From positions 1 through 56,491 of the IMG/VR virus record IMGVR_UViG_3300048834_000448: a stretch of DNA of 56,491 bases. One strand, 5' to 3'. The position numbers were made by a program, and so were the translations under genes. Below, one piece after another: positions 382 through 56,491 of the stretch. How positions within the stretch are numbered: position 1 is the first letter of the stretch; every line of letters begins with the position of its first letter. The notes beneath the pieces are model-generated. The model saw nothing but the letters and a program-made list of their open reading frames with translations. It did not search any database and was not told the origin of the DNA. Source of the DNA: a virus.

Positions 382-383
382 CA

Positions 384-818
384 ATGGCACGCAAGAAGAC
401 CGCGAAGAAGAGCCCGAAACGAAAGCCCGCCAAGAAGACCACCAAGAAGAAGGTCGCGAAGACAGCATCCCGGCCCCGCTCGACCCGAACCCCCCGCTCC
501 GGCGGCCCAGGCAAGATCTCCAAGGTCTCTGCCAAGGATGTGAACCCCGTCTACACCGGCACAGCCCGAGGATCTCAGTACGACGCCCTGTTCGAGCAGA
601 TGCAGGGCCTCGACCCGAGCAAGCCTGATGTGGTGCTGAAGGCGTACCCGCCCGATGGCGTGGACGCCCGCACCTATCAGTCCCGCGTCAACAGCACCAT
701 GCTCGCCCGCAAGTTCCAGCGGCCCAAGGGCTACACCTACTACAAGCGGGTGTGCGTCGATGAGCATGGCTTCCAGTATCTGGCGATCTCGATCACCCCC
801 GAGCGCAACTACGCCTGA
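384..818 (+). CDS. Basic protein with histone H1-like N-terminal tail
   Basis: 144 residues. The first ~35 residues are Lys/Ala/Pro/Thr rich with repeated KK and PAKK-type steps, like the tails of histone H1 and bacterial H1-like proteins, followed by an Arg/Ser/Thr/Pro stretch to ~50. The remainder is an unrecognised, probably globular domain with many aromatic residues near the end. The tail suggests non-specific binding of DNA or RNA, possibly compaction. It starts 2 nt after the DNA polymerase stop behind a good AAGGAG, so it is probably co-transcribed and coupled with the polymerase. A hairpin terminator follows. The function is inferred from composition only. Confidence 0.6.
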   Translation: MARKKTAKKSPKRKPAKKTTKKKVAKTASRPRSTRTPRSGGPGKISKVSAKDVNPVYTGTARGSQYDALFEQMQGLDPSKPDVVLKAYPPDGVDARTYQSRVNSTMLARKFQRPKGYTYYKRVCVDEHGFQYLAISITPERNYA

Positions 819-830
819 TCCAGCAGGAAG

Positions 831-867
831 CAAGACCCGCAGGGCGGCCCCCGCTCTCGGGTCTTTT
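831..867 (+). terminator. Rho-independent terminator
   Basis: An 8-bp stem, AAGACCCG (832-839) with CGGGTCTT (858-865), is followed by a short T-run. It lies directly after the H1-like gene and before the gene at 883, so it probably ends or attenuates the polymerase transcript. The loop of about 18 nt is long for a terminator. Confidence 0.6.
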
Positions 868-882
868 ACGAAGGAGACTGAG

Positions 883-1422
883 ATGAACAGAGCGGTTTGG
901 GAGGTTCTCCCTGTCGGCTACATTGCCTCGGCGTACACGAAAGGCGACACAGGCATCAACACCCGCAACTCGATGCTCCTGTGGGATCGCCTGCTGGACA
1001 CAGGAGAGGTGCTGCCGGTTTGTCCTTTGTGGTCGCACTTCCAGCACATCCTGATGCCAAGACCCTACGAGGACTGGCTTCGGTACGATCTGGCTCTCCT
1101 ACATCGCTACGACTTCATTATCCGCATTCGCGGCGAGTCGTCGGGCGCAGACAGGGAGGTTGAGTATTTCACTCAGGTGCTAAATCGCCCGGTGTTCTAT
1201 CTCGACAACAGAGACGCCCCTCTCGATGAAGTGATTGCTTGGGCGAGGGAGTGGACGAAGGAGAAGAGGGAGAACGAAAAGTTGATCTGGTTGCAGGATC
1301 AGGCCATCGAGAAACTCAACTCTCAGTATCCCGTCTCGACCGCTGACATCGACGACTGGCACGACGAGAGAAGGGCGAGGGGAGTGTTCACCGACATCGC
1401 TCAGCCGTGGTGGGCAAAGTGA
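883..1422 (+). CDS. Nucleoside 2-deoxyribosyltransferase-like protein (DUF1937/DUF4406 type)
   Basis: 179 residues from the ATG at 883, which has AAGGAG 7 nt upstream; in-frame starts further up would run into the preceding gene. The N-terminus (VGYIASAYT) resembles the first strand and loop of the nucleoside 2-deoxyribosyltransferase fold. The central GESSGADREVEYF resembles the catalytic loop of that family, where a Ser-Gly-X-X-X-E pattern contacts the nucleoside and carries the nucleophile. Family members exchange bases on deoxynucleosides or hydrolyse them. The C-terminal third is charged and helical. It sits with MazG, kinase and methyltransferase genes, consistent with nucleotide metabolism, but its substrate cannot be read from the sequence. 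Confidence 0.6.
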   Translation: MNRAVWEVLPVGYIASAYTKGDTGINTRNSMLLWDRLLDTGEVLPVCPLWSHFQHILMPRPYEDWLRYDLALLHRYDFIIRIRGESSGADREVEYFTQVLNRPVFYLDNRDAPLDEVIAWAREWTKEKRENEKLIWLQDQAIEKLNSQYPVSTADIDDWHDERRARGVFTDIAQPWWAK

Positions 1423-2042
1423 GCCGCAAACTCTGCATCGGCATCGACCCCGACCTCCACTCCTCTGGCATCGCTTTCGTAGCTGAGGACACCGGCGAAC
1501 TCGTCGGCGTGGCCGTTCTTCGAGAGATAGTCAAGAAGAAAGGCCGTGAGGCGTGCGTGGAAGCGGCGGTCCGCATCGCCGGGTTTCAGAAGTTGGAGTA
1601 CCCCTTCTACCCGTTCATCTGGGAAACCGAGTGGCCAGACAGCATATTTGCTGCTGCCGCCGTTGAGGGGCAGGAGGCCGTGTACGCCGCGAAGCACGGG
1701 GCAGGGCCCCGCCCGCTCATCCTGCTGGCCCATGTCTCGGGTGCATGGCTCAACGCCCTTGCGCCCATGACGGCCAACCTCTACCTTCCTGCCCCCGCCG
1801 AGTGGAAGGGTCAGGTGCCCAAGCACATCAAGCAGGGCCGCATCGCGGCGAAGATCGGCGTCGAGGTCGATGTGGTCTGCCCGAGCAGTCCCTACTGTGT
1901 GCCAAAAGACCCGAGCAAGATCCCCGGCGGCGACAAGATCAAGAAGGCCGAATGGAGCGAGGTGTTCGACGCCATTGGCTTGGCGTTGTACGCGAGAGAG
2001 CAATACATGAAAGAAGGGAAGAAGAATGTTCGCAGAGGTTGA
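1407..2042 (+). CDS. RuvC-like Holliday junction resolvase
   Basis: 211 residues with a GTG start at 1407 that overlaps the previous gene by 16 nt; a second GTG at 1419 is an equally plausible start. The N-terminus IGIDPDLHSSGIAF matches the first strand of the RNase H fold with the catalytic Asp of RuvC. Near the C-terminus, DAIGLALYA matches the last RuvC motif, which carries another catalytic Asp. Such phage enzymes cleave four-way junctions before packaging. Its stop overlaps the methyltransferase start, forming an operon. Family assignment rests on these two motifs and the overall size. Confidence 0.75.
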   Translation: MVGKVSRKLCIGIDPDLHSSGIAFVAEDTGELVGVAVLREIVKKKGREACVEAAVRIAGFQKLEYPFYPFIWETEWPDSIFAAAAVEGQEAVYAAKHGAGPRPLILLAHVSGAWLNALAPMTANLYLPAPAEWKGQVPKHIKQGRIAAKIGVEVDVVCPSSPYCVPKDPSKIPGGDKIKKAEWSEVFDAIGLALYAREQYMKEGKKNVRRG

Positions 2043-2940
2043 AACGGGAGAGTGTCTCGAAGTGATGCGCTCGCTCGATGCTGATTGCGTTGACGCGATC
2101 GTGACCGACCCACCCTACGGCCTCGCGTTCATGGGCAAGTCGTGGGATCACGCCGTACCCGGACCGGAGTTCTTCGCGGAGATGCTGCGGGTTGCCAAGC
2201 CCGGCGCGCACCTGCTGTCGTTCGGCGGGACGCGGCTGTACCACCGCACGACCTGCGCGATCGAGGACGCGGGCTGGGAAGTGCGCGACTGTTTGATGTG
2301 GCTGTACGGGAGCGGGTTCCCGAAAAGCCACAACGGGCCCTGGGGCGGCACGGCCCTCAAGCCCGCGTGGGAACCGATCGTCCTCGCGCGCAAGCCGCTA
2401 GTCGGCACGGTGGCGGCGAATGTGACGAAGCACGGCACGGGCGGGATGAACATTGATGGGTGCAGGATTCCATGTAGCGACAAACTTACTGCGCCACAAA
2501 GCGACCCGCACAAGCGAGGAATGCGTGCCGGAGAGTATTGCATTTCTACCCGCGATACTACAGCGATGCGCGACGCTCAACGGGAGAGCATTGAGCGGAC
2601 AGTGCTACTTGGCCGCTGGCCCGCGAACCTTGTGCTTGACGAGGGCGTGACGGACGCCGATTGGACCCGCTACTTCTACTCTGCTAAGGCCAACAAGAAG
2701 GACAGGGGAGAGGGAAACCACCACCCCACCGTCAAGCCCACCGACCTCATGCGCTGGCTCTGCCGCCTTATCACGCCCGAGGGCGGGACCGTGCTCGACC
2801 CGTTCTGCGGGTCCGGCTCCACGGGCAAGGCGGCTGTGCTTGAGGGCTTCGACTTTGTGGGCATCGAACGCGAGGCGGAATACGCCGAGATCGCCCGGGC
2901 ACGCATCGCAGATGCAATCAAACAGAAGGAGTCAAAGTAA
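2026..2940 (+). CDS. Orphan DNA methyltransferase (beta class, N4/N6)
   Basis: 304 residues. The catalytic DPPY motif is at residues 28-31 and the SAM-binding FCGSGSTG motif is near the C-terminus. The order catalytic motif first, SAM motif last is that of beta-class N6-adenine or N4-cytosine methyltransferases. HPTVKP before the SAM motif is typical of this class. Between the motifs lies a target-recognition region of about 190 residues. No restriction endonuclease gene is adjacent, so it probably protects phage DNA from host enzymes or marks it for other uses. The ATG lies inside the end of the RuvC-like gene, preceded by a GAAGGGAAGAAG purine tract. Confidence 0.88.
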   Translation: MFAEVETGECLEVMRSLDADCVDAIVTDPPYGLAFMGKSWDHAVPGPEFFAEMLRVAKPGAHLLSFGGTRLYHRTTCAIEDAGWEVRDCLMWLYGSGFPKSHNGPWGGTALKPAWEPIVLARKPLVGTVAANVTKHGTGGMNIDGCRIPCSDKLTAPQSDPHKRGMRAGEYCISTRDTTAMRDAQRESIERTVLLGRWPANLVLDEGVTDADWTRYFYSAKANKKDRGEGNHHPTVKPTDLMRWLCRLITPEGGTVLDPFCGSGSTGKAAVLEGFDFVGIEREAEYAEIARARIADAIKQKESK

Positions 2941-3521
2941 TGCTAAGTAGGGATTTCCTTGAGAGGTTCCAGATAGCGAACCTCATGCGAGTGGACGAGG
3001 CGTTCGCTCCGCTGAAGTCGTGGACCCCCTGTGACTGGATCGCGTGCCTTCAAGGCGAGATCGGCGAGGCCATCAACAAGGCCAAGAAGATCAAGCGGGT
3101 CGAGTCCGGGCTGGGCGACATCAACTCCGACGAACTGATGGCCCGGCTCAGGCACGACCTCGGCGAGGAACTTGCCGACTGCTTCGTGTACGCGATGCTG
3201 ATCGCTCATCAATGGCGGATTCATTCTTTCACTGTGTCTGGTTGTCTTCAGGGCGTAGACAACAACAGCAATCTTGAGTATTATCGCAAGACAGCCGGAA
3301 GCGGATTCAATGGCTTCATGCGACTGAGCATAGTCTGCAATAGCATGTTCGAGTATGAGTCCAACGGAGGATGCTATCGAGACTCTCGTGAAGATTATGT
3401 CTCTGAGGTGATCGTCTGGATCACCGTCCTTGCCGAACACCACGGCATCGACTTCGAGACCGCCATCATCGAGAAGTTCAACGAGACCTCATCCAAGTCA
3501 GGGAGCAAGATTTTCCTATGA
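2940..3521 (+). CDS. MazG-like nucleotide pyrophosphohydrolase
   Basis: 193 residues. QGEIGEAINKAKKI followed later by GEELADCFVYAML fits the EXXE ... EXXD metal-binding pattern of all-alpha NTP pyrophosphohydrolases. These enzymes hydrolyse (d)NTPs to monophosphates and diphosphate; phage versions may alter nucleotide or alarmone pools. An insert of about 55 residues after the second motif and a long C-terminal extension make it larger than minimal MazG domains. It overlaps the upstream stop by one base and the downstream start by four, so the three genes are translationally coupled. Confidence 0.75.
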   Translation: MLSRDFLERFQIANLMRVDEAFAPLKSWTPCDWIACLQGEIGEAINKAKKIKRVESGLGDINSDELMARLRHDLGEELADCFVYAMLIAHQWRIHSFTVSGCLQGVDNNSNLEYYRKTAGSGFNGFMRLSIVCNSMFEYESNGGCYRDSREDYVSEVIVWITVLAEHHGIDFETAIIEKFNETSSKSGSKIFL

Positions 3522-4093
3522 GACCGAATCTCATCTTCGTCATGGGTCCGACTTGCTCCGGCAAGAGTACCTTGTTGCAGATCGCCTCGCAGATGTCGCC
3601 CAGCGTCGGCCTTGTCGAGGTCGGCAAGATGCTCCGCGCCAAGTACCCGCCCTCTCACTTCGCGGGTCAGTGCAACCCCGCCCACACGGCGGGCGAGGCG
3701 TGGGATCTCTGTCGCTCCGAGGTGGACCGCCTGACCGAGGGCAGGAAGGGCATCATCCTCGTTGACGGCCAGCCGCGAGATCGGCACCATGTCGAGAAGA
3801 TCTACGAGCACTTCGTCCGCAAGGGCAAGTACAAGGTCCGCTTCATCCTCGTGGACGCGGAACTCGCCGAGCGAGAGCGTCGAGCCCGAGCGTCACGCTC
3901 CGGCGAAGACCTTGAGACCCTGGCCATTCCCCGTCTCACGAACGACATGATCTCGAACTACACGGTCATGGTCGAGATCATCAAGCAAGGCGGGAGCATC
4001 GAGGTCTTCGACTCCACGAACATGAAGCACATGTCCCCGTCTGACATGTTCGCTCCATTGATCCGCGACATCATCTTCAATGCGAAGGGCTGA
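3518..4093 (+). CDS. P-loop nucleotide kinase (adenylate/dNMP kinase-like)
   Basis: 191 residues. Walker A, GPTCSGKST, lies at residues 10-18. VDGQPRD near residue 84 resembles the NMP-binding segment 'DGFPR' of adenylate kinases. ERERRARASRSGEDLETLAIPRL resembles the lid region with its arginines. It probably phosphorylates nucleoside monophosphates for DNA synthesis; the specificity is unknown. The start ATG overlaps the MazG stop (ATGA-type overlap). Confidence 0.75.
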   Translation: MRPNLIFVMGPTCSGKSTLLQIASQMSPSVGLVEVGKMLRAKYPPSHFAGQCNPAHTAGEAWDLCRSEVDRLTEGRKGIILVDGQPRDRHHVEKIYEHFVRKGKYKVRFILVDAELAERERRARASRSGEDLETLAIPRLTNDMISNYTVMVEIIKQGGSIEVFDSTNMKHMSPSDMFAPLIRDIIFNAKG

Positions 4094-4095
4094 AC

Positions 4096-4407
4096 TTGGG
4101 CACGCAATTCCCCACACCACGAGATGCCAGCAACCATCTGCTGGCGGCGATCGACACCATCCTCGGCGACGGGTACAAGATCAAGGGCATCAAGCCCGAG
4201 GAGGTCATCATCGAGCACGAGCCGCCCGGCAACGACATGGCCCCGCTCGACGAACCGACCGGCCCCGTGCCCGATCAGTCCTTGGCCATCGCTCTGGGCA
4301 TGGGCAAGGGACAGGGCGATCTCTCCAACTGCTGCGGTGCTCTCACCGAGATGAAGGGCACCTGCAAGTATTGCATGAACTGCGGAAGTTCTGACGGATG
4401 CTCTTGA
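4096..4407 (+). CDS. Small protein with RNR-like C-terminal zinc ribbon
   Basis: 103 residues from a TTG start 2 nt after the kinase stop; no ATG gives the same reading frame near the N-terminus. Residues ~75-103 contain CCGALTEMKGTCKYCMNCGS plus a final Cys. This C-x-x-G ... G-x-C-x-x-C-x-x-CG-S pattern matches the Cys-rich tail of B12-dependent (class II, NrdJ) ribonucleotide reductases. No reductase gene is visible in the window, so the domain stands alone, behind ~70 residues of unknown character. It could act with a host reductase or be an unrelated zinc knuckle. Confidence 0.55.
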   Translation: MGTQFPTPRDASNHLLAAIDTILGDGYKIKGIKPEEVIIEHEPPGNDMAPLDEPTGPVPDQSLAIALGMGKGQGDLSNCCGALTEMKGTCKYCMNCGSSDGCS

Positions 4408-4408
4408 T

Positions 4409-5005
4409 TTAGATCCCGATCTCCGTCACATCCTTCTCTCGGAACCGACCGCCCATCCTCATCTTGACATACTCAGAGAAGTCCTTCTGAGCGATCCGGC
4501 CTGCCGCCTCGCGGAAGCCGGACATGCCGCCCCCTTCGTTCTCAAAGAACCGAGTGGGCGGTGTTCGTTTACGGATCTGCTTCGTGATGATGACCGGCGA
4601 ATCGTAAGGGTCGCCGCCCGCCTCGATCCACGCCTGACGCACCAGCCAAGCCCGCAGGAACTCCTCACGGCTCAGCGACCGCAGGGACGACCTACGGCGG
4701 GGCGTGGTGCCTTTGACGCCTCTGCGGGGATCGTTGCGGGGGTCTTTCCAGAAGACCATGTACGAGCCCTTCACGAAGGGCTTGCGGCCATCGTGGGCGT
4801 AGACCGCCCAGTAGTGCGGGATGCGGACCCTCGCCTCGATCGTGAACGCCGCCCGACTGCGGCGAGTCGAGCGAGCGACCTCAAGGTACATGGCCCGGGA
4901 CAGGGTACCGCTGACCGCACGGACGCGAGGGCGGGCGATCCGAAGGGCCGCCTCGCCCAGCCGTCTCGCCAACCTTCGCTGGAATCGAAGGTTGTCCAGT
5001 GTCAT
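4409..5005 (-). CDS. Probable head-tail joining / tail-terminator-like protein
   Basis: 198 residues. It is very basic in the first 60 residues and lies last in the portal operon, with an ATGA overlap to the gene upstream. A central region with the pattern IPHYWAVYAHDGRKPF, a basic loop, and a C-terminal TRFFENEG before a long helix is reminiscent of HK97 gp10-like tail completion proteins, which have a similar strand-loop-helix layout. The match is weak and based on appearance. It ends 1 nt from the convergent zinc-ribbon gene, with no terminator between. Confidence 0.4.
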   Translation of the reverse strand: MTLDNLRFQRRLARRLGEAALRIARPRVRAVSGTLSRAMYLEVARSTRRSRAAFTIEARVRIPHYWAVYAHDGRKPFVKGSYMVFWKDPRNDPRRGVKGTTPRRRSSLRSLSREEFLRAWLVRQAWIEAGGDPYDSPVIITKQIRKRTPPTRFFENEGGGMSGFREAAGRIAQKDFSEYVKMRMGGRFREKDVTEIGI

Positions 5006-5283
5006 CGAGATGCCTTCCGAAGAATGGTCAGGTCAGTGATGACGCCCTTGGCGATCGCGTAGTTGTGGATGTTCTCCTTGTTCTCCGCGCGAGGCCACTC
5101 GCTAGGGTCGGCGTGAACCCAGCAGTCGATGACATACGCCCTGGGCGTGATGACCCCGACCTTGCCGAAGATCAGGTATTCCACGGCATCGTCGTTGTTC
5201 TCGTGGTGGTCGAGGAACTTGATCTCCACCACATCACCGATTTGGGGAATGACCTTCTTGACTCGCCGTTTGGGCTTTCTCAT
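5002..5283 (-). CDS. Hypothetical small protein in portal operon
   Basis: 93 residues from the ATG at 5283, which overlaps the metallophosphoesterase stop as ATGA; the longer reading frame upstream lies inside that gene and is not used. The first ten residues are very basic (RKPKRRVKK). The body, with IGDVVEIKFLDH and VGVITPRAYVIDCWVHAD, looks like a small all-beta domain with a Lys/Arg tail. No family is recognised. Position suggests a structural or DNA-associated role in head assembly. Confidence 0.6.
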   Translation of the reverse strand: MRKPKRRVKKVIPQIGDVVEIKFLDHHENNDDAVEYLIFGKVGVITPRAYVIDCWVHADPSEWPRAENKENIHNYAIAKGVITDLTILRKASR

Positions 5284-6578
5284 TTGTCCCTCGCGTAAAC
5301 GCTGGCCATACCTGCGAAGCCGTGCTCCCCATAACGCCACACATCGGCGCAACGGACGGCGTTGTATCCCTGCTCGTGATGCCACGCATCAGACTGGGCC
5401 AGGGACGGGTTGATGCGGAAGGTCACTGAGCCCACCGAGTCCACGGTCACTTGGTCGATCTGCTTGCGGTGGTGCTTGTCTCCCGTGTGCCACTCGCGGC
5501 ATACGGCACCGTTCCAGTGCTCGGATGCCTCGTCGGCCATGATGCGGAATGTCTCTTTCGGGTTGATCTTGTCGCCGTGGGTGAAGCCCAGCAGCGTCTT
5601 GCCCCATGTGCGGTACTTCCGCACGCCCGGCCCGACATCGACGCTCACGCGGGGATCGTTCCTGTACCTCTGCTTGAGCCAGTGGCACAGATGCAAAGAG
5701 GCAACCATGTCGTGGTTGCCTCGCACCAGAAGGATCTCGATGTCGTCGCAGAACTCAAGAGACCTGTCCACCTGATGAGCGAGCACATCATGGCAGGCTC
5801 GGAGCACGCGAGGGTAGCGGGAGTCTTGATCGACGGTGACTCTGCCGCTGGATGTCTCGCCTCGGTAGTTGTCGAAGTGCATGAAGTCGTTGCCGACCGG
5901 GATCAGGATCTTCCCGATCTCGTAGCGACCGACATCATCGAGGATGTCGTCGACGGCGTTCTTGGCCCGCCGCCCGGCGATGTTGGTGTCGTAATCCTTG
6001 CCGACTTCCTCGCCCCAGCAGAGCGAGCCGATGTGCGCATCGTAGAGGCCGAAGACCGCCAACTGAGCCAGCGGCGTGATGTCCTTGATCGCACGCTTCT
6101 TCGGGGCCGGAAGCGGTTTGATCCGCTCGGCCAACACCTTGGCCACGGCCTCGACGCTCTCGGGGACGATCCGCTCGATCCAGATCTTCAACTGGCAGAG
6201 CGTGACCTTCTGGGCCGTCGCCGTCTCCTTGTCGCCCTTCTTGTAGAAGCCCTGCCACTGGTTGGGGCTCAGCCGCGTGACCCGCCAGCAGAGCGGGTCA
6301 AGGTCGTACTTCTTCAGGATGTCCTCGGGCGAGGGCATCTTGTAGTCGGTGAGTTCCAGCCAGCCGGTGCCGCTCTGGATGTCGATGTCCCCCTTGACGC
6401 CCACGGGCGGCGGGGTCTCCTCTCGCTTCTTCTCCACCCGCTCTGACGCGACGATTCTCGAACGGAGAGTGCTCGGGGGAATACCGAGAGCCCTGGCTGC
6501 CGCCGTGGGCGTGCCGTGCTTCTCCAACGCCTCGCGAGCCTCGATGAGCAACTCATCGGAAATTCCCGGGTTTGCCAT
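5280..6578 (-). CDS. Helix-turn-helix / metallophosphoesterase fusion
   Basis: 432 residues. Residues ~8-45 form a Psq-type HTH (TPTAAARALGIPPSTLRSRI). After a linker, residues ~170-430 carry the calcineurin-like phosphoesterase signature in order: DAHIGS, GNDFMH, GNHD, THGD and GDKHH. All expected metal ligands are visible, so it should be an active binuclear metal hydrolase of phosphomono- or diesters, perhaps a nuclease guided by the HTH. Such fusions occur in phage packaging regions, and here it sits 2 nt after the portal gene. Whether it acts on DNA during packaging is inference. Confidence 0.75.
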   Translation of the reverse strand: MANPGISDELLIEAREALEKHGTPTAAARALGIPPSTLRSRIVASERVEKKREETPPPVGVKGDIDIQSGTGWLELTDYKMPSPEDILKKYDLDPLCWRVTRLSPNQWQGFYKKGDKETATAQKVTLCQLKIWIERIVPESVEAVAKVLAERIKPLPAPKKRAIKDITPLAQLAVFGLYDAHIGSLCWGEEVGKDYDTNIAGRRAKNAVDDILDDVGRYEIGKILIPVGNDFMHFDNYRGETSSGRVTVDQDSRYPRVLRACHDVLAHQVDRSLEFCDDIEILLVRGNHDMVASLHLCHWLKQRYRNDPRVSVDVGPGVRKYRTWGKTLLGFTHGDKINPKETFRIMADEASEHWNGAVCREWHTGDKHHRKQIDQVTVDSVGSVTFRINPSLAQSDAWHHEQGYNAVRCADVWRYGEHGFAGMASVYARDK

Positions 6579-34682: not shown

Positions 34683-34750
34683 CAAACAGCGAAACTATAG
34701 GTATCACTGCACTCCCGTGAAATTTTTAGGTCTGGGATTTTTTGGGGTCT

Positions 34751-34778
34751 TTGATATGAAGTAGGGCACTCTTATACT
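34751..34778 (+). promoter_or_regulatory. Candidate sigma70-like promoter
   Basis: TTGATA (34751-34756) and TATACT (34773-34778) are separated by 16 bp, with a T-rich stretch upstream. It points rightward, towards the small-gene block. It is the best promoter match noticed in the control region. Confidence 0.5.
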
Positions 34779-34813
34779 CGAAAAAGGCTCCACGTAGCGG
34801 CCTTGCTAGTAAG

Positions 34814-34853
34814 TACTAACTAACATCTAAGTTAGTTAGTACTAACTAACATC
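34814..34853. repeat. 20-bp perfect palindrome with flanking direct repeat
   Basis: GTTAGTTAGTACTAACTAAC at 34831-34850 equals its own reverse complement. TACTAACTAACATC occurs at 34814-34827 and again at 34840-34853, so an extra half-site stands to the left. It is not followed by a T-run, and it lies about 40 bp downstream of the TTGATA/TATACT pair, suggesting an operator. Confidence 0.75.
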
Positions 34854-34884
34854 GCTCCCCCCACGAATAGGGTGTCCTTGCCAG

Positions 34885-34903
34885 TGTTAGGTAGACCCTA
34901 ACA
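34885..34903. repeat. Inverted repeat TGTTAGG-N5-CCTAACA
   Basis: Seven-base arms with a 5-bp spacer. The GTTAG core is shared with the 20-bp palindrome, so both may bind the same dimeric protein. Confidence 0.6.
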
Positions 34904-34916
34904 GATGCGACAGGAC

Positions 34917-34967
34917 AACCCCTAGTTTCACTGTAGCGACCCGGTGCGCAGAATAACCCCTAGTTTC
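34917..34967. repeat. Direct repeats AACCCCTAGTTTC
   Basis: Thirteen identical bases at 34917-34929 and 34955-34967, 38 bp apart. A related TAGTTTCATCGTAG occurs near 35481. Confidence 0.6.
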
Positions 34968-35084
34968 GCCGTTATGCAAGGCTAGTGTATACTAACATCG
35001 GTTTATCGCGTGAACGGACAATCAACCTATGGTAAAGTGCATTATACAGTATAAATTTATGCAATTGCATATGAATATACAATA

Positions 35085-35098
35085 TGCTAGATATAGCA
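35085..35098. promoter_or_regulatory. Operator-like 14-mer TGCTAGATATAGCA
   Basis: Arms TGCTA/TAGCA flank GATA. The same 14 bases occur at 8035-8048 before the portal/capsid operons. It sits at the right edge of an AT-rich stretch (35035-35098). Two identical copies at the two main divergent control regions suggest a shared regulator. Confidence 0.6.
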
Positions 35099-35150
35099 CA
35101 TTGCCGATACCCTAGGTTGAATGCTCCTCCCCTACGCGATACCTATAGGC

Positions 35151-35549
35151 GCGCACAGACACGCACAGACCGCCCGTGCGCCAGTATTCCCGGCCATTCG
35201 GCCATGCTACTAGGCGTTTCCCTTACCCAAGTGCGGCCATATCCCATGGGATACCATCCAGCGCACAGCGCACAGATCTGTATATTGTTGCTATCACTAG
35301 AATACCACAATAGGGGGTATATGCCATATACCATACGCCCTATGGTAACAATAGTCGAGAAGTGTGCGCTGTGCGCCGGCACTTATCCTTATGCCTCACA
35401 AGCACTTAGAGGCGCACAGGCCCAAATAGCGCGCTGTGCGCGCCCCCCAGTATTCCCGCCCGCCAGGGGGCCATAAAGGGTAGTTTCATCGTAGAGTGGC
35501 GTTCTGGAGCGCACATGGCCGATACGCTATGCCTGTGCGCGCTGTGCGC
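35151..35549. repeat. Cluster of GCGCACAG / CTGTGCGC octamers
   Basis: Exact or one-off copies: GCGCACAG at 35151, 35261, 35268 and 35412; ACGCACAG at 35161; CTGTGCGC at 35369, 35434, 35533 and 35542; a partial copy at 35509. Forward copies dominate the left and inverted copies the right. Iteron-like clusters of this density usually mark replication origins or multi-site regulation. Confidence 0.65.
35316..35332. repeat. Inverted repeat GGTATAT-GCC-ATATACC
   Basis: Seven-base perfect arms with a 3-bp spacer, inside the octamer cluster. Flanking ATAGGG and CCCTAT extend the symmetry imperfectly. Confidence 0.5.
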
Positions 35550-35624
35550 CGGTCGAGGTGAGGAATTCTCGATTATCTTGAAGTCTTCCCTTGCATCGAA
35601 CCGAAAGATACTGTACTTTGATCC

Positions 35625-35663
35625 TGAATCCCTCCTCACTCCCTGATAAGGAAGAAGAAAGCA
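35625..35663 (+). repeat. Start-associated leader repeat, family 1, partial copy
   Basis: This copy shares CTCCTCACTCCCTGATAAGG and a following GAAGA-purine run with the copies at 35906 and 36240, and like them ends at a start codon. AAGGAAGA is the likely ribosome-binding site. The 5' half of the repeat is missing here. Confidence 0.7.
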
Positions 35664-35870
35664 ATGAAGCAATGCACAGCCTGTAGCGGGCCGCTAACCC
35701 TCTCCCCTTCCGCAAAGGATCGCGCCGCCAAGTATGGCGGGAAGCCCTCAGACTACTCCCGATTGTTCTACGGGCGCACTGGGGGCATGTGCTCCCCATG
35801 CTTCCTAGCGAAGCGGGAAGCCGATACACTCGCCCTTGTGCGCCGCCTGAGCCCGACTGAGCCCGCCTGA
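35664..35870 (+). CDS. Small Cys-rich protein, first gene of rightward block
   Basis: 68 residues. CTACSGP at residues 4-10 and MCSPC at ~42-46 give two CxxC pairs, probably a zinc ribbon. The last residues (LSPTEPA) and the stop are encoded by CCTGAGCCCG repeat units that continue past the gene, so its end is repeat-derived. It starts after a family 1 leader. Not recognised further; codon use differs from the structural genes, with more ATA, CTA and AGG. Confidence 0.6.
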   Translation: MKQCTACSGPLTLSPSAKDRAAKYGGKPSDYSRLFYGRTGGMCSPCFLAKREADTLALVRRLSPTEPA

Positions 35871-35910
35871 GCCCGCCTGAGCCCTACGCGCCTGAGCCCG
35901 CCTGAGCCTA
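35846..35910. repeat. CCTGAGCCCG repeat array after first small gene
   Basis: Five or six imperfect copies of a CCTGAGCCCG-type unit run from inside the 3' end of the gene into the intergenic space. Each unit carries TGA in one frame. Confidence 0.75.
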
Positions 35911-35970
35911 GCGGCACAGGTACGGGTATTCACGAATCCTCCTCACTCCCTTGATAAGGAAGAGCAAGCA
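35906..35970 (+). repeat. Start-associated leader repeat, family 1, copy A
   Basis: 65 bp ending at the start codon of the next gene. It begins GCCTAGCGGCACAGGT and ends with a GATAAGGAAGAGCAAGCA-type ribosome-binding segment. It is nearly identical to 36240-36303, differing by one substitution and one extra T. Similarity continues into the first codons (Met-Glu-Ser-Asn). Confidence 0.85.
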
Positions 35971-36210
35971 ATGGAAAGCAACAGGAGCACGGTACGGGAA
36001 GCAATAGCCTCTGGCAGGGCTTCCGCGCGGATGGTAGCGGGCAATACCTACGCGAGGGTCTATCGGGAGATGCAACGGCGCAATCCAGGCGGATGGGAAT
36101 TCGGCGCGGATCGTACTACCCTCGCCATAAGCCTTCCCGGTTGGCTGCGCGCACTGGACCGCGCTTCCTATATAGACGCCCGTAGTAAGGCGGAAGCCCT
36201 ACCCGCCTGA
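35971..36210 (+). CDS. Hypothetical small basic protein
   Basis: 79 residues, MESN start shared with the gene at 36304. Rich in Arg and Ala; helical (REAIASGRASARM, YREMQRRN). No family recognised. Uses AGG and ATA codons freely. The stop lies in a CCCGCCTGAGCC unit as in neighbours. Confidence 0.55.
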   Translation: MESNRSTVREAIASGRASARMVAGNTYARVYREMQRRNPGGWEFGADRTTLAISLPGWLRALDRASYIDARSKAEALPA

Positions 36211-36245
36211 GCCTACCAGCCTGAGCCTACCCGCCTGGAGCCTAG
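36204..36245. repeat. CCTGAGCCTACCCG repeat array, short
   Basis: About three imperfect units following the stop of the gene at 35971 and running into the next leader. Supplies the gene's stop codon. Confidence 0.7.
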
Positions 36246-36303
36246 CGGCACAGGTCCGGGTATTCACGAATCCTCCTCACTCCCTGATAAGGAAGAGCAA
36301 GCA
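36240..36303 (+). repeat. Start-associated leader repeat, family 1, copy B
   Basis: 64 bp ending at the ATG at 36304. Near-identical to copy A over its whole length, including the ribosome-binding segment. Confidence 0.85.
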
Positions 36304-36567
36304 ATGGAAAGCAATACCCTCCAATACGCTCAGGTCGATAAGGTCCGGGTACACGGAAGCCCTCGCCCTAGACTGGACGCATATGGCTATACCGTGCGCG
36401 CGGGCTCTCCCACTACCCTACAAGTGCGCTTGCAAGGGGAGGCCCGATGGAGGCGCGTCTATTGCTTGCAATTCTCCAATGCGGGCTCTTTCTTCCTTCA
36501 CCATAAGGGCGGTAGGTTATTCGTCCGGGATAGCGATATCCCGCCGTACAGCGAATTGCTCGCCTGA
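36304..36567 (+). CDS. Hypothetical small protein
   Basis: 87 residues, starting MESN. Beta-rich pattern (TVRAGSPTTLQVRLQGEARWRRVYCLQF) ending in RLFVRDSDIPPYSELLA. Not recognised. The first codons belong to the leader repeat, and the stop to the tandem array that follows, so the whole unit looks like a cassette. Confidence 0.55.
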   Translation: MESNTLQYAQVDKVRVHGSPRPRLDAYGYTVRAGSPTTLQVRLQGEARWRRVYCLQFSNAGSFFLHHKGGRLFVRDSDIPPYSELLA

Positions 36568-36654
36568 GCCTACCCGCCTGAGCCTACCCGCCTGAGCCTA
36601 CCCGCCTGAGCCCGCCTGAGCCCGCCTGAGCCCGCCTGAGCCCGCCTGAGCCTA
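36563..36654. repeat. Tandem array: 3 x CCTGAGCCTACCCG then 4 x CCTGAGCCCG
   Basis: Perfect tandem units of 14 bp at 36563, 36577 and 36591, then of 10 bp at 36605, 36615, 36625 and 36635, with a last unit running into CCTAGCGGCACAGGT. The array begins at the stop codon region of the upstream gene. About 230 bp from 36568 to 36798 hold no gene, only repeats. Confidence 0.92.
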
Positions 36655-36730
36655 GCGGCACAGGTCCGGGTATTCCCGCCTTCCTTATCTTCCCGCCTGA
36701 GCCTAGCGGCAAAGGGCGGGGATTCTCTCC

Positions 36731-36798
36731 CCGGACTGTCTGAGCCTAGCGTATAGGCCCGGACTGTCTGAGGACTGGACTCGGAAGGATACCAGACA
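36731..36798 (+). repeat. Start-associated leader repeat, family 2, copy 1
   Basis: Begins CCGGACTGTCTGAGCCTAGC, has a second GGACTGTCTGAG, then a GGACTCGGAAGGAT segment with the ribosome-binding site, and ends at the ATG at 36799. The CTGAGCCTAGCG core is also part of family 1, linking the two families. Confidence 0.85.
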
Positions 36799-37263
36799 AT
36801 GGCCGATAATGAGACTATGCCCGCTTTCATTGCCCGCAACCTGAGCAACCGGAAGCATATCCGGCCCGCCCTTGTAGCGTTCCGGGACGCTATCAAGGCG
36901 GTAGAGGGGAAGACCGCCGGGCAGATATCCGATGCCGCTATGGCGGACCTGAAGCGGACCGCCGCCGCGCTTGAATCGGCGCAAGAAGCGGTAGGTTGCG
37001 GGTCCGCCGTCTACCTTCCCCGATATCAGACAATGGAGCACGGCGGAAAGAAGCCCCGGTATACGGCAGACTACGCCGATGATATGGTCGCTCAGATAGA
37101 AGGGGAAATTCACAATCTGGACACGCTGGACGGCTACGAATGGGAAGCACTAGACGCGGCGCAAGCGGCATACTTCGCCCTATTAGATACCCTGCCCGCG
37201 TCTATTAGGATGGCCTACACTCATCGGAACGGCCACATATCCTCGCGACCGCTTGCCATCTGA
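36799..37263 (+). CDS. Hypothetical helical protein
   Basis: 154 residues, strongly helical and Ala-rich (DAIKAVEGKTAGQISDAAM, LKRTAAALESAQEAV), with a helical C-terminal half around IEGEIHNLDTLDGYEWEALD. No catalytic motif or family recognised. It stands between two family 2 leaders. Soluble and mildly acidic. Confidence 0.6.
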   Translation: MADNETMPAFIARNLSNRKHIRPALVAFRDAIKAVEGKTAGQISDAAMADLKRTAAALESAQEAVGCGSAVYLPRYQTMEHGGKKPRYTADYADDMVAQIEGEIHNLDTLDGYEWEALDAAQAAYFALLDTLPASIRMAYTHRNGHISSRPLAI

Positions 37264-37390
37264 GCCCGCCCGGACTCGCTCAGCGTTTGACAGTCTAAAC
37301 CGGACTGCCTACGCTTTCAGAATCTCCCGGACTGTCTGAGCCTAGCGTATGGGCTGGACTGTCTGAGGACTGGAATCAGAAGGATACCGT
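37261..37390 (+). repeat. Stop- and start-associated repeat, family 2, copy 2
   Basis: Starts with the stop codon of the upstream gene. 37261-37319 is nearly identical to 37844-37902, and 37327-37390 is the family 2 leader (CCGGACTGTCTGAGCCTAGC ... GGAAGGAT) ending at an ATG. Contains a promoter-like TTGACA (37287-37292) and TACGCT (37310-37315). Confidence 0.85.
37287..37315 (+). promoter_or_regulatory. Candidate promoter inside repeat (copy 2)
   Basis: A perfect -35 TTGACA, 17-bp spacer and TACGCT as a weak -10. The same pair occurs at 37870-37898. Confidence 0.5.
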
Positions 37391-37846
37391 ATGTCTAAAC
37401 TCTCTGATAGCATCCGATACGATAGCCTTGTGGGCGGATACCTCGCCTGCGCCGTCTTCTGTGGGATTGATGAAGAGCACCCGTTATTTATTCACGGCGG
37501 GCGCGATGAAGACTTTCACAACCCGGGACTATTCCTAGACTCTTCCATACGGCGGGCTCAGGCGGACTGTGCCGAATTCATGACGCGAGCCCGCCCGATA
37601 CTGGAACGCTACGCCGAATTACATGAGGACTGCGCCGAAGAAATCGAGGCGATTTCTGAGCAGGATTTCGGGATGAATTTCTGGTATGACCGGAACGGGC
37701 ACGGGACTGGTTTCTGGGACCGCGCCCGGGAATGGGGGGTGCCTGAGGGAATGCTAGAAGAATTGTCACAGGCCGCTAAGGCTTTCGGGGAATGCTACGC
37801 CGAATTCACAACCCCGGACCGCCGCGCGCGTTTGTGCCTCGCCTGA
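37391..37846 (+). CDS. Conserved phage hypothetical protein
   Basis: 151 residues. MNFWYDRNGHGTGFWDRARE (residues ~97-116) matches a motif common in unrelated phage hypothetical proteins ('D..L.RNGHG.GFWDRG'), function unknown. The N-terminal half is acidic and helical (AHDFL-like CAEFMTRARPILERYAE). Behind a family 2 leader; stop provided by the next repeat. Confidence 0.65.
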   Translation: MSKLSDSIRYDSLVGGYLACAVFCGIDEEHPLFIHGGRDEDFHNPGLFLDSSIRRAQADCAEFMTRARPILERYAELHEDCAEEIEAISEQDFGMNFWYDRNGHGTGFWDRAREWGVPEGMLEELSQAAKAFGECYAEFTTPDRRARLCLA

Positions 37847-37976
37847 GCCCGCCCGGACTCGCTCAGCGTTTGACAGTCTAAACCGGACTGTCTACGCTTT
37901 CTGGAATCTCTCGGACTGTCTGAGCGAGCGTATCGCCCTGGACTGTCTGAAGTCTGGACTTGGAAGGATTAGGACA
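37844..37976 (+). repeat. Stop- and start-associated repeat, family 2, copy 3
   Basis: Begins at the upstream stop codon. Near-identical first ~58 bp to copy 2, followed by the family 2 leader (TCGGACTGTCTGAGCGAGCG ... GGAAGGATTAGGACA) and the ATG at 37977. Confidence 0.85.
37870..37898 (+). promoter_or_regulatory. Candidate promoter inside repeat (copy 3)
   Basis: TTGACA (37870-37875), 17-bp spacer, TACGCT (37893-37898), identical hexamers and spacing to copy 2. Confidence 0.5.
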
Positions 37977-38543
37977 ATGGCTAAGAAGATTGAACCCCTC
38001 GCCAATCCCTACCGTTCGCGCACGCTCGCCAAGGCGAAGCGAAACATGGAAGACCCCCGACTTGCCTATGACTACAACCGGGTGAGGTCTTTCGTCCCCA
38101 GGCAACATAACGCCCGCAACCTCTCCCCCGATAAAGAGACGGTGCAGCAGTGGGGGTATATTTGTCGGGCGAAAGACTACGACGGGAAGACGATCCAACA
38201 GGAGGCGATCAATCTTCGATGGTATATGGGCCGCAGCAAGGCCGCCAGCGTCGTGTATTGCTCCGTCTGGGTCAATCCGCCCAGGGGGACTCGATTCGGC
38301 TACGCGGGCTCTGACAGCGAGCCCAATCCCCTTATGTGGGATCGGCACCCTAGCGGGTACGGGAACGCGGGCGGCGGGGGCTATGACAAATTCAGCGCGG
38401 CCGCTTGTGGGGCGATCCGCTCGGCGGGATTCAACCTTGAAGGCCACTTTGCCGGGTATGGCGAGGCCGCGATCAAAGCGGCGGTTATGGCCGTCGCCGA
38501 CTACATGGGCCTTCCGCTCGATGGTTTGATTGTCCAGCACTGA
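37977..38543 (+). CDS. Conserved phage hypothetical protein
   Basis: 188 residues. The stretch VYCSVWVNPP, then SGYGNAGGGGYDKFSAAACGAI and a Gly-rich GFNLEGHFAGYGEAAIKAAV tail resembles a widespread phage/prophage protein of unknown function with the pattern 'SG.GkA.G.GYhK.SAA...Ai..AG'. The N-terminus is basic. Its codon use is closer to the main genome than that of the genes before it. Confidence 0.65.
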   Translation: MAKKIEPLANPYRSRTLAKAKRNMEDPRLAYDYNRVRSFVPRQHNARNLSPDKETVQQWGYICRAKDYDGKTIQQEAINLRWYMGRSKAASVVYCSVWVNPPRGTRFGYAGSDSEPNPLMWDRHPSGYGNAGGGGYDKFSAAACGAIRSAGFNLEGHFAGYGEAAIKAAVMAVADYMGLPLDGLIVQH

Positions 38544-38560
38544 AATACGCGCCGGTCGCT

Positions 38561-38574
38561 GAGCGGAAACGCTC
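38561..38574 (+). other. Small hairpin GAGCG-GAAA-CGCTC
   Basis: A five-base perfect stem closed by a GAAA tetraloop lies 18 nt after the stop codon at 38541-38543, at the place where the TTGACA-bearing segment occurs in copies 2 and 3. No T-run follows, so it is not a standard terminator; it may stabilise the transcript. Confidence 0.45.
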
Positions 38575-38596
38575 GCGGCTGGTTTCAACACTTGCC

Positions 38597-38661
38597 CCGG
38601 ACTGTCTGAGCGAGCGTATCGCCTGGACTGTCTAGGGTCTGGACTCGGAAGGATTAGGACA
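38597..38661 (+). repeat. Start-associated leader repeat, family 2, copy 4
   Basis: CCGGACTGTCTGAGCGAGCG through GGACTCGGAAGGATTAGGAC, ending at the ATG at 38662. Closest to copy 3. The 58-bp upstream half seen in copies 2 and 3 is absent here. Confidence 0.85.
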
Positions 38662-38904
38662 ATGACTGTTAGCGAACTGATGCAGGTACTTCAAGAGGGC
38701 ATAGACAAAGGCAAGTGGTACAAAGGCACTCGGGTAGTCACATACAACCATTGCGCCGATGACGGGACCACCTACGGCGACCCCGACCCCGAGCGAGATA
38801 CGCTCATCCAGAAGGGCGGCAAGGGACCGCTAGGGAACGCGAGCCCGTATGTAGGCCCTGAAGGATACCCCAAGGCCGATCGCGTGGCCGTCGTAGTGCT
38901 TTGA
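38662..38904 (+). CDS. Hypothetical small protein
   Basis: 80 residues. N-terminal helix (MTVSELMQVLQEGIDKG) then a beta-like, Gly/Pro-rich rest with a hydrophobic end (DRVAVVVL). It resembles short phage proteins with a 'DVV.Y..C.DG' pattern but is not assigned. Last gene preceded by a family 2 leader. Confidence 0.55.
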   Translation: MTVSELMQVLQEGIDKGKWYKGTRVVTYNHCADDGTTYGDPDPERDTLIQKGGKGPLGNASPYVGPEGYPKADRVAVVVL

Positions 38905-40482: not shown

Positions 40483-40533
40483 ATGACTGTGGACACACTC
40501 TGGCGGTGTGAGAGCATCGCCCGAGTTTTATGA
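40483..40533 (+). CDS. Possible 16-residue leader peptide
   Basis: ATG at 40483, 7 bases after the start-stop, encodes MTVDTLWRCESIARVL and stops with a TGA overlapping the start of the next gene (ATGA). If translated, it would couple initiation of the gene at 40530. No independent support; too short for coding statistics. Confidence 0.3.
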   Translation: MTVDTLWRCESIARVL

Positions 40534-40784
40534 GGAACGAAACCGTAATCTCGTGGCAGCCTTTGGACGAACCAGCGTCCCCGACTCTTCCCACCTTCGT
40601 CAGTGAGGATGAGGGGAACCACTCGCAGGACCATCTCGTGCATCTCGTGGTCGAGCCGGTGGACTGGTTCGCGGTGCGAGGGCCAGGAGACGAAGGCAGC
40701 ATCCCGACACCATCGAGCGCGTTGCTCGGCATCGCGGGACTGCTGCTGCTGGCGATCAAACGACGGACAAGGAGCAAGCAATGA
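40530..40784 (+). CDS. Small protein with PEP-CTERM-like C-terminal anchor
   Basis: 84 residues, no N-terminal signal peptide. The C-terminus has SIPTPSSALLGIAGLLLL followed by AIKRRTRSKQ, matching the layout of PEP-CTERM sorting signals: Pro-X-Pro-Ser, a short hydrophobic helix, then basic residues. The family usually has Pro-Glu-Pro; Pro-Thr-Pro variants are known in some groups. Without a signal peptide it may simply be a tail-anchored membrane protein. The stop overlaps the next start. Confidence 0.5.
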   Translation: MRNETVISWQPLDEPASPTLPTFVSEDEGNHSQDHLVHLVVEPVDWFAVRGPGDEGSIPTPSSALLGIAGLLLLAIKRRTRSKQ

Positions 40785-42173: not shown

Positions 42174-42425
42174 ATGACCGCACGCTGGCAATACGAGGTC
42201 TTCGAGGGAGGATCTCGCGGCTCGGGCAAGGCCATCAACTACTACCTGAAGCGTGTCGGCGTCAGCGAGCGACACACCCTCACAGCAGACTGTGAGTTCA
42301 TGTACCGGGACGGCTGGGGTCCGCCTATCGTCCCCGCGACGCGGCGACTCAAGGCGTACAGTCAGCGTGGGCTGGCGGAGCGTGCGATGTCGATTGCGAT
42401 CGCCGAAGCGGATGCGGGATTATGA
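42174..42425 (+). CDS. Hypothetical small protein
   Basis: 83 residues; basic, with a beta-like first part (WQYEVFEGGSRGSGKAINYYL) and a C-terminal helix (ERAMSIAIAEAD). No family recognised. ATGA overlap with the short zinc protein that follows. Confidence 0.5.
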   Translation: MTARWQYEVFEGGSRGSGKAINYYLKRVGVSERHTLTADCEFMYRDGWGPPIVPATRRLKAYSQRGLAERAMSIAIAEADAGL

Positions 42426-42592
42426 ACCTTCGCTTGACATCTGATACACCGACGCTTAGACTCCCCTGCCCAGAGTGCAAAGGACTCGGGCGTGTGGAGG
42501 CCCCGGACACCTTCTGTGTCCGAGGACAGCCGCTTGGGATTCGAGGTGCGGTGATCCCGTGCCCTAAGTGCAAAGGAAAGAAGTATGTTTGA
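42422..42592 (+). CDS. Small DnaJ-type zinc-motif protein
   Basis: 56 residues, starting at the ATGA overlap. CPECKGLG (residues ~16-23) and CPKCKGKK (~46-53) are two CxxCxG motifs as in DnaJ-type zinc centres, separated by ~22 residues. Such mini-proteins are common in phages and of unknown use. The end overlaps the next gene by 8 nt. Confidence 0.6.
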   Translation: MNLRLTSDTPTLRLPCPECKGLGRVEAPDTFCVRGQPLGIRGAVIPCPKCKGKKYV

Positions 42593-54401: not shown

Positions 54402-54475
<74 letters not shown>

Positions 54476-54588
54476 TTTGCCGCCTGCTCCTTACAGGCGA
54501 GCGTCCCGCCGTCAGACACCCTTGACGGTCTCTCGGAAATACGCGCCGAGAGTTATCCCGGTGGCGGGGACGCCTGCCGCCGGGGTTT
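54476..54588 (+). ncRNA. Four-hairpin leader before DNA polymerase
   Basis: Successive stems: CGCCTG/CAGGCG (54481-54499), CCGTCA/TGACGG (54509-54528), CTCTCGG/CCGAGAG (54530-54552) and GGCGG/CCGCC (54563-54581). The last is followed by GGGGTTT and then the polymerase ATG, with no clear Shine-Dalgarno. It may be a structured 5' leader controlling the polymerase, or the end of a longer RNA. Confidence 0.5.
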
Positions 54589-56491
54589 ATGGAAGACACC
54601 CTCAAGATCCTCGGCTTTGACTTCGAGACCCTGCTGATCGGCCCGCAGCGGATCGCCCCGCCAGCGGTCTGTCTCTCGGCCTACGACGGCGAGGATTCTG
54701 TGCTGTACGGTCGCGTGGAACTAGACGACATGCACGCCCTGCTCGATGTCATCTTCGACTACGAGGACGGAGGCACGATCAGGGCCGCCCACAACCTCTC
54801 CTTCGACGCGGCGGTGGCCTGCACCGAGAGGCCCGACCTGATTCCCGCCATCTGGGATCTCCTCGACCGGGGCCTGCTGCAATGCACTCAGGTCCGCGAG
54901 AAATTGCTGAACCTCTGCGAGGGCGGGCATGTCGATTACATCGAGGGCAAGGACGGCGTGAATGTCAAGGTCAAATACTCCTTGGCCTCTCTCGTCATGC
55001 AATACTTCGACAAAGATATCTCCGTCTCGAAGACCGGCGACGACGCATGGCGTCTGAACTACGGGATGCTCTGGGACACGCCCGTGGGCGAGTATCCCGA
55101 CGCCGCCAGCGAGTACGCCATCGAGGACTCGATCTGGGCCGTCAGGGTGTGGCACGCGCAAGAGCGTCGCCGCCATGATGTGCTCGCGGCCTGTGGCCGA
55201 GACCCGTTCAAGACGCTTGCCTTCCAGACGAAGGCCGCGTTCGCCCTCCACATGATGACCTGCTGGGGCATGGCCATCGACCCCGAGGCCAAGGCCAAGA
55301 TCGAAGCGACCGTCAAGGACTGCCTGCGCCCCGAGAATCTGAGGCACCTTCTCGATGAGGGAATTCTGATTCCCGAGGTGCCCGAGATGCCTTACAAGAA
55401 CGGGGCCAAGGACGCCGACGGCAATCCGAAGATGAAAGCGGCTGTGCCTGAGAAGATCGCCCAGAGCAAGTTTCGCGAGTTCGTAAAGAAGGTCGTCGAG
55501 GACGCCGGGCAGGAGGTCAAGATGACCTCGCCCTCGTCGAGGTTCCCTGACGGTCAGGTGAGCATCGCGGCGGAGTACATCGAAGAGATCTCCTCGCTCC
55601 ATCCGCTGTTGCAGGAGTACGCCGATCGTCAGTCGTTGCAGAAGATCGTCGGCACCGAACTGCCTCGCATGTGCTGGGAGGGTGAGACCGCCGCTGTGGT
55701 GCATCCCTGCTACGATGTGCTGAAGAATACGGGGCGGACCTCATCGTTCGCGGTGGACATGTACCCGTCCTTCAACTGCCAGAATGTGGCGAGGCCCCTC
55801 AAGGCCCCCAACGGCGAGATGATTTCGGTGCGAGGGTGCTTCGTGCCTCGTCCGGGCAACCTGCTCGTCTCCATCGACTACGCGGGCATGGAACTCGGTA
55901 CGCTGGGTCAGGTCTGCCTGAACTTGCTGGGCCGCTCGGTCCACGCCGAGAAGATCAATGCTGGCTACGACCTTCACTCGTTCCTCGCGGCTCAGATCGC
56001 CCGTAAGACCGACGACTCGTTCGGCCAGAAGGCGTCGTCGGACAAGGACGAGGCATACCAGCAGTTCATGGCCCTTCGCAAGGGCTCCGAGGAAGAGCAG
56101 AAGTGGGCCAAGCACTTCCGCAACCTCTCGAAGCCCACAGGACTGGGCTACCCTGGCGGCCTCGGCGCAGAGACCTTCGTGGCGTATGCCAAGGCCACCT
56201 ACGGCGTTCTCATCGACCTCGCCACGGCCAAGATGCTGAAGGAGATTTGGCTTGAGACTTACGATGAGATGCCCGACTACTTCAAGTACATCAACTCCCA
56301 ACTCATAGACCCCCGCAACACCGACAAGTACCACTACGACACGCCGATGGGCCTGTACCGCCCGAACGCCGACTACTGCGCCGTCGCCAACGGGCTAGGG
56401 CTTCAGTCCCCGTCGGCGGAAGGGGCAAAGGGCGGGGTCATCAATGTCGTCAGAGAGACACTGGACTTTTCTCTGGGGAGCATCTTGCTTC
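54589..56491 (+). CDS. polA: DNA polymerase family A, N-terminal part (continues at base 1)
   Basis: 634 codons here, and 718 residues when joined to bases 128-381. The N-terminal 3'-5' exonuclease has DFET (11-14), HNLSFDAA (~68) and YAIEDSIWAV (~176). Motif A is SIDYAGMELG with Asp430. Motif B is RNLSKPTGLGYPGG with Arg511, Lys515 and, at the place of E. coli Phe762, Leu519. Motif C lies at the window start. No 5'-3' exonuclease domain. Leu at the 762 position is linked in viral surveys with slower or more accurate enzymes. The likely start is the ATG at 54589, whose ribosome-binding site is weak and masked by hairpins. Confidence 0.9.
   Translation, partial: MEDTLKILGFDFETLLIGPQRIAPPAVCLSAYDGEDSVLYGRVELDDMHALLDVIFDYEDGGTIRAAHNLSFDAAVACTERPDLIPAIWDLLDRGLLQCTQVREKLLNLCEGGHVDYIEGKDGVNVKVKYSLASLVMQYFDKDISVSKTGDDAWRLNYGMLWDTPVGEYPDAASEYAIEDSIWAVRVWHAQERRRHDVLAACGRDPFKTLAFQTKAAFALHMMTCWGMAIDPEAKAKIEATVKDCLRPENLRHLLDEGILIPEVPEMPYKNGAKDADGNPKMKAAVPEKIAQSKFREFVKKVVEDAGQEVKMTSPSSRFPDGQVSIAAEYIEEISSLHPLLQEYADRQSLQKIVGTELPRMCWEGETAAVVHPCYDVLKNTGRTSSFAVDMYPSFNCQNVARPLKAPNGEMISVRGCFVPRPGNLLVSIDYAGMELGTLGQVCLNLLGRSVHAEKINAGYDLHSFLAAQIARKTDDSFGQKASSDKDEAYQQFMALRKGSEEEQKWAKHFRNLSKPTGLGYPGGLGAETFVAYAKATYGVLIDLATAKMLKEIWLETYDEMPDYFKYINSQLIDPRNTDKYHYDTPMGLYRPNADYCAVANGLGLQSPSAEGAKGGVINVVRETLDFSLGSILL
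56365..56491. repeat. Terminal direct repeat, right copy (contig overlap)
   Basis: Identical to bases 1-127. See the left copy. Confidence 0.95.

Follow-up and report, generated by a model that had tools for sequence, protein, structure and literature searches.

Two-hairpin repeats as probable RNA-level separators of small genes in a siphovirus-like tailed phage

Our results suggest that the repeats between the small genes of one genomic island act, on balance, as gene separators at the level of RNA; the island would hold early accessory genes, and the separators would allow independent expression and play a role in recombination. The island lies in a virus record of 56,491 bases, the whole of which was analysed and is called the window here. 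In the gaps that carry the second of two repeat families (family 2), the stop codon of one gene is followed by a hairpin (hairpin A), a leader hairpin (hairpin B), a Shine-Dalgarno (SD) sequence and the ATG of the next gene. Insulation by hairpins is the best-supported function of this arrangement.

The window encodes portal, major head, major tail, tape measure and tail assembly proteins, and also a ligase, a thymidylate synthase, an exonuclease and a helicase. By this structural and replication gene content the phage is a siphovirus-like tailed phage. Among the ORFs scanned, T4-type markers were absent and the PHROG matches were portal, tape measure and tail proteins; with regard to the idea of an integron gene cassette, no integrase was found in the same scan, which covered part of the window's ORFs. 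Searches for relatives returned no DNA match to 34.5-41.5 kb among 50,697 phage records, and the portal, tail-assembly, primase and gene-37391 proteins led to no close relative in IMG/VR. The major head protein reaches about 25% identity at most, to diverse phages, and among 200 genomes of the order to which an Azoarcus genome belongs it revealed no close relative. Rfam recognized just a tRNA within the window. Strong hairpins cluster at 54500-54620, adjoining a tRNA-Arg gene (54402-54475), and an 84-aa ORF at 40530-40784 ends in SIPTPSSALLGIAGLLLLAIKRRTRSKQ, which by eye resembles a PEP-CTERM sorting signal.

Seven small genes separated by repeats make up the island, at 35664-38904 (Table 1), and their codon use and GC3 are shifted. 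Comparison of the seven proteins gave just marginal matches, none of them convincing as paralogy. Position is what suggests that the island is expressed early. The AT-richer non-coding region upstream of it probably controls, to judge by its sequence, the rightward early genes. Near-perfect palindromes of TAGTTAGTACTAACTAAC lie within that region at 34804-34851, and together with them it is a possible origin or control region.

Table 1. Features of the island and its upstream region, in window coordinates
Feature	Position	Strand	Details
Non-coding region	34686-35663	.	~1 kb; 50% GC; palindromes, sigma-70-like matches
Island gene 1	35664-35870	+	68 aa; phrog_8738, unknown function
Family-1 stop-proximal hairpin, copy 1	35897-35926	+	CCCG.CCTG.A.GCC[TAGC]GGC.A.CAGG.TA.CGGG
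Island gene 2	35971-36210	+	79 aa
Family-1 hairpin, copy 2	36231-36260	+	
Island gene 3	36304-36567	+	87 aa; weak phrog_3436
14-nt and 10-nt tandem repeats	36561-36652	+	CGCCTGAGCCTACC / CCCGCCTGAG; TGA per unit; over gene 3 stop
Family-1 hairpins, copies 3 and 4	36641-36721	+	36641-36670 and 36692-36721; hairpin A position before 36799
Family-2 leader 1	36731-36798	+	hairpin B 36732-36770; SD GGAAGGAT 36783-36790
Island gene 4	36799-37263	+	154 aa; no family
58/59-nt block 1	37260-37318	+	hairpin A 37282-37315; TTGACA 37287-37292 and TACGCT 37310-37315 in arms
Family-2 leader 2	37327-37390	+	hairpin B 37328-37365; SD AAGGAT 37380-37385
Island gene 5 (37391)	37391-37846	+	151 aa; phrog_1915, FWxxRNGHGxGFWD family; homologues in many phages
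58/59-nt block 2	37843-37901	+	hairpin A 37865-37898; TTGACA-N17-TACGCT 37870-37898
Family-2 leader 3	37911-37976	+	hairpin B 37911-37950; SD GGAAGGAT 37962-37969
Island gene 6	37977-38543	+	188 aa
Non-homologous hairpin A	38551-38583	+	GAAA tetraloop; in place of 58-nt block; z -4.0
Family-2 leader 4	38597-38661	+	hairpin B 38597-38635; SD GGAAGGAT 38647-38654
Island gene 7	38662-38904	+	80 aa; last gene with repeat leader

The initial annotation reported four leaders ending at the start codons of the genes at 36799, 37391, 37977 and 38662, and all four are present there. About 48 alignment columns are identical in every leader. Three details are corrected here: the leader before 37977 reads TCGGACTG at its 5' end, the one before 37391 reads CAGAAGGAT at its 3' end, and the SD lies 5-9 nt upstream of the ATG. 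The core CTGAGCCTAGCG, with at most one mismatch, occurs five times, always within 35.9-37.4 kb, where shuffles predict 0.35 occurrences; CTGAGCGAGCG replaces it in the leaders before 37977 and 38662. A covariance model of the leader scored the four copies at 62-66 bits, and no comparable repeat family was found elsewhere in the window. The shuffle count, the restriction to the island and the model scores thus place the repeats far beyond chance. The next matches to the model, at 14.6 bits, fall in the 58-nt blocks upstream of two leaders, so these blocks may hold a diverged leader copy. A common origin had been proposed for the two repeat families; because both show the short core and the stop-hairpin-leader plan, such an origin is plausible for the core. 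In IMG/VR, exact 21-mer, 15-mer and 18-mer searches with the repeats and a gapped search with the GGACTGTCT pair gave none or unrelated matches.

The leader folds into three short helices, CGGAC.T.GTCTG.A.GCCTA[GCGTA]TAGGC.C.CGGAC.T.GTCTG. Where copies differ, this fold is preserved (GCCTA/TAGGC, GCCTA/TGGGC, GCGA/TCGC). In hairpin B, 98.1% of alignment cells are paired in register, compared with 16-44% when the partner is slid by 1-3 columns. One pair is changed on both sides (U-A, U-G, G-C), another alternates between G-C and G-U, and a single cell is broken. In a simulation, seven stem changes left at most one broken pair with P ~0.001, or 0.02 when substitutions only were counted. With four sequences the covariation is not decisive, as 70 of 500 shuffles match the observed value, and the individual leaders and family-1 hairpins are mildly more stable than their composition predicts (z -0.6 to -2.4). 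The G-U pairs, and the GAAA (GNRA) loop of the hairpin A before 38662, sit on the gene strand, which favours RNA over DNA as the level at which the repeats act.

Two near-identical blocks at a stop codon had also been described, and they were recovered here: 58 of 59 positions (98%) are identical, and each block starts one base before the TGA. Both contain hairpin A in the form AGCGT-tt-GACAGTCTaaaccGGACTGTC-t-ACGCT (z -3.7 and -5.1). The gap before 38662 has no such block; a GAAA-looped hairpin of unrelated sequence takes its place, and none of 300 shuffles was as stable as this hairpin or as hairpin A of the second block. Before 36799 the position is filled by family-1 hairpins, CCCG.CCTG.A.GCC[TAGC]GGC.A.CAGG.TC.CGGG. 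Three unrelated sequences therefore occupy the hairpin A position across the gaps, which argues that the hairpin is kept and its sequence is not. The tails that follow (TTTC, TTTCAAC and TATTC) lack the proper U tract of an intrinsic terminator, and a terminator scan found no terminator-like site in the gaps. Tandem repeats of 10 and 14 nt, with a TGA in each unit, end three genes (35843-35908, 36198-36244 and 36561-36652) and resemble slippage-prone expansions of the family-1 hairpin's 5' arm.

Gene 37391 offers a view of the arrangement beyond the window. Phages of Caulobacter, Brevundimonas, Rhodobacter, Pseudomonas, Cronobacter and Erythrobacter carry phrog_1915 homologues of it, as do 266 confirmed IMG/VR stretches. 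We surveyed 83 phrog_1915 loci with at least three usable gaps against dinucleotide shuffles; some of these loci are related pairs (L059/L062, L133/L134), and one or two carry a homologue of another island gene. A start-associated repeat was common to at least three genes in 14 loci and to at least two genes in 27, and to none in the shuffles, and its sequence differs from phage to phage. One locus, L086, has the same two-hairpin plan as the window: eight copies of a constant hairpin leader with SD and ATG stand behind site-specific post-stop hairpins, and two of the eight flank the phrog_1915 gene. The units of L126 open with the TGA stop of the phrog_1915 gene and continue through a hairpin up to the SD. 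The stems of L114 and L134 vary from copy to copy and all still pair. The repeats of L119, L066, L059 and L060 are promoter-like, with or without a terminator. Post-stop hairpins of the phrog_1915 gene with z below -3 show a modest excess (6 of 71 versus 1 of 71 controls, P 0.048). A long repeat with a 15-nt period, in 25 registers, lies directly after the phrog_1915 homologue of L126 (3536-4150).

Two Caulobacter phages illustrate how such a unit might behave as a cassette. A two-gene unit that holds a phrog_1915 homologue is single in phage C1 and present twice in tandem in BL47, with a period of 1429 bp (L059 1957-4952 versus L062 1957-3523). BL47 1-3523 aligns to C1 1-3523, and BL47 3450-6357 aligns to C1 2021-4929; the 74-bp overlap of the two alignments is the repeated terminator-promoter separator. 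From these alignments we infer a recombination event within the separator that either duplicated the unit or removed one copy. The possible system for inserting small accessory genes, raised in the initial annotation, draws indirect support from these phages. For the window this is an analogy, not a proof, drawn from another phage group.

The principal alternative, which we regard as possible, is that the 58-nt block is a host sigma-70 promoter, giving two genes an early promoter each, in the manner of T4 PeSLs. The hexamers TTGACA-N17-TACGCT of the initial annotation are indeed present at 37287-37315 and 37870-37898, with a perfect TTGACA, a 17-nt spacer and a TAxxxT, and the predicted starts (~37322 and ~37905) fall right at leader hairpin B. 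Promoter-like repeats accompany the phrog_1915 family elsewhere, with several copies of TTGACT-16-TAGAAT in L119 and TTGAC repeats with hairpins in L066 and L059. However, both hexamers are arms of hairpin A and are accounted for by it, the -10 matches at 3 of 6 positions and is rejected by a consensus scan, and the two near-identical copies amount to one event. The window contains TTGACA 15 times, and a search with spacers of N16-18 found a third TTGACA-N17-TANNNT at 42434, inside the listed ORF 42422-42592. The proposed unit of stop, promoter, leader and ribosome-binding site exists in two of the four gaps, the site being missing from the other two. The earlier idea of a ready-made gene separator thus holds better for two RNA hairpins with an SD than for a promoter unit, and its embedded promoters are present as hexamers that are weak as promoters.

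The gaps could also form a DNA operator array, in which near-palindromic CGGACTGTCTG units bind a regulator of the phage, either a repressor or an activator, and the RNA hairpin is incidental. The stoperators of phage L5 are binding sites for a phage regulator, and ESAS are thought to be likewise. There are two or three of the near-palindromic CGGACTGTCTG units per gap, and they are confined to the island. We nevertheless consider this unlikely, since a constant difference between the half-sites is a G-U pair in RNA and a mismatch in DNA, pairing survives the changes in the central stem, and the layout is kept in gaps with unrelated hairpins. Still less probable is that the gaps are neutral debris of gene-plus-gap duplication or slippage with no role, as the tandem arrays of 10 and 14 nt in the family-1 gaps and the resemblance of the 58-nt blocks to recent copies might suggest, because the seven island proteins are not paralogues, the leaders stop exactly at the SD and start codon, stem pairing is kept, and other phages have arrived at the same plan with different sequences.

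The repeats belong with the PeSL-like intergenic regulatory repeats of tailed viruses, namely T4 PeSLs and those of HF2, HGTV-1 and SAS/ESAS. A less common trait is the use of two hairpins, a variable one at the stop and a constant one at the start, together with the recurrence of this arrangement in unrelated phages. PeSLs (promoter-early stem-loops) are described as mobile regulatory cassettes of T4-type phages (Arbiol 2010 and Comeau 2014, as related in PMC4503421 and PMC3950731). Like them, the window has repeated stem-loops in several near-identical copies between small variable or early genes, and the gene shuffling to which these accounts tie PeSLs would be a further likeness. Unlike them, it has no proven promoter, TTGACA-N17-TACGCT standing in two of four gaps inside a hairpin, and it has a second constant leader hairpin beside the SD; its repeats differ from PeSLs in sequence, nor, by the ORFs scanned, is the genome that of a T4-type myovirus.

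Halovirus HF2 resembles the window in carrying two intergenic repeat classes in one tailed virus; its class I (58 bp) and class II repeats are shown promoters with a TATA box (PMC8707807), whereas those of the window are hairpins without a demonstrated promoter. In HGTV-1 a TATA-like box with an inverted repeat precedes most ORFs on one side of the genome, and its authors draw the comparison with PeSLs (PMC3950731); in contrast to the window, this is an archaeal virus and its motif is promoter-like. The SAS of cluster K mycobacteriophages is a 13-bp GGGATAGGAGCCC located 3-8 nt before start codons, about half of the copies being extended by an upstream inverted repeat, ESAS (PMC3203893). These repeats and those of the window alike stand directly at the start codons of small non-structural genes, but GGGATAGGAGCCC is absent from the window leaders, which read GGAAGGAT, and departures between copies do not support RNA pairing in SAS/ESAS (PMC3203893) but do support it in the window.

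The separators of Caulobacter and Brevundimonas phages (Dolichocephalovirinae; L059, L060 and L062) flank the homologue of gene 37391, as in the window, and likewise place a hairpin and a leader between small genes, with the unit duplicated in BL47. They have U-tract terminators, GTTAAC inverted repeats and TTGACt promoter-like boxes of their own and no sequence similarity to the window. Our search of the literature on intergenic hairpin repeats in phages found nothing beyond these systems.

The leader core, searched as GGACTGTCTGAGCN{1,2}AGCGTA, had 12 matches in a collection of bacterial and archaeal genomes, and 10 of the 12 fell in one element. This element, GAGGACTGTCTGAGC-[variable hairpin]-CGAGTTCCGCAG, sits on long location-specific stems, mostly between genes, in Azoarcus, Thauera, other Proteobacteria, Eggerthellaceae and Atopobiaceae. 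Each of six genomes holds 3-34 copies, and the reversed pattern had 0; five of its loci match no Rfam family. The element often forms inverted pairs ~170 nt apart and occurs in distant phyla (L148-L171; for example L150 5970-6110). The phage leader shares the 5' half only of the element, a match whose chance is of the order of 0.001 by a rough estimate and which we treat as a lead, not a result. A broader proposal, which we hold to be rather improbable, is that two-hairpin separators are a general, repeatedly invented device making accessory genes interchangeable expression units, with the window leader built from the bacterial GAGGACTGTCTGAGC-hairpin-CGAGTTCCGCAG core.

We then propose a model for the RNA-level separators. 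Hairpin A starts at or near the stop of each small gene, its sequence free to vary, and the next gene opens with the constant leader hairpin B, which a strong SD immediately follows. In the RNA, hairpin A would shield or end the upstream message, and hairpin B would shield the downstream message or yield a processed 5' end. With termination, processing or stabilisation of this kind in the cell, hairpins at both message ends would let each gene be expressed independently of its neighbours. Since neighbouring separators are near-identical, they would also provide homology for recombination in the phage of the window, by which genes could be duplicated, deleted or swapped. In this way the separators probably make every small gene a unit that functions by itself and can be exchanged or duplicated.

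Repeats of the kind known from T4, HF2 and mycobacteriophages are therefore found again, in unrelated sequences, around a single family of small genes that many phages share. The duplication junction between BL47 and C1, lying inside separators, makes the recombination idea directly testable. Together, these observations lead to the testable idea that phages may add small genes without disturbing their neighbours by means of a hairpin at each end.
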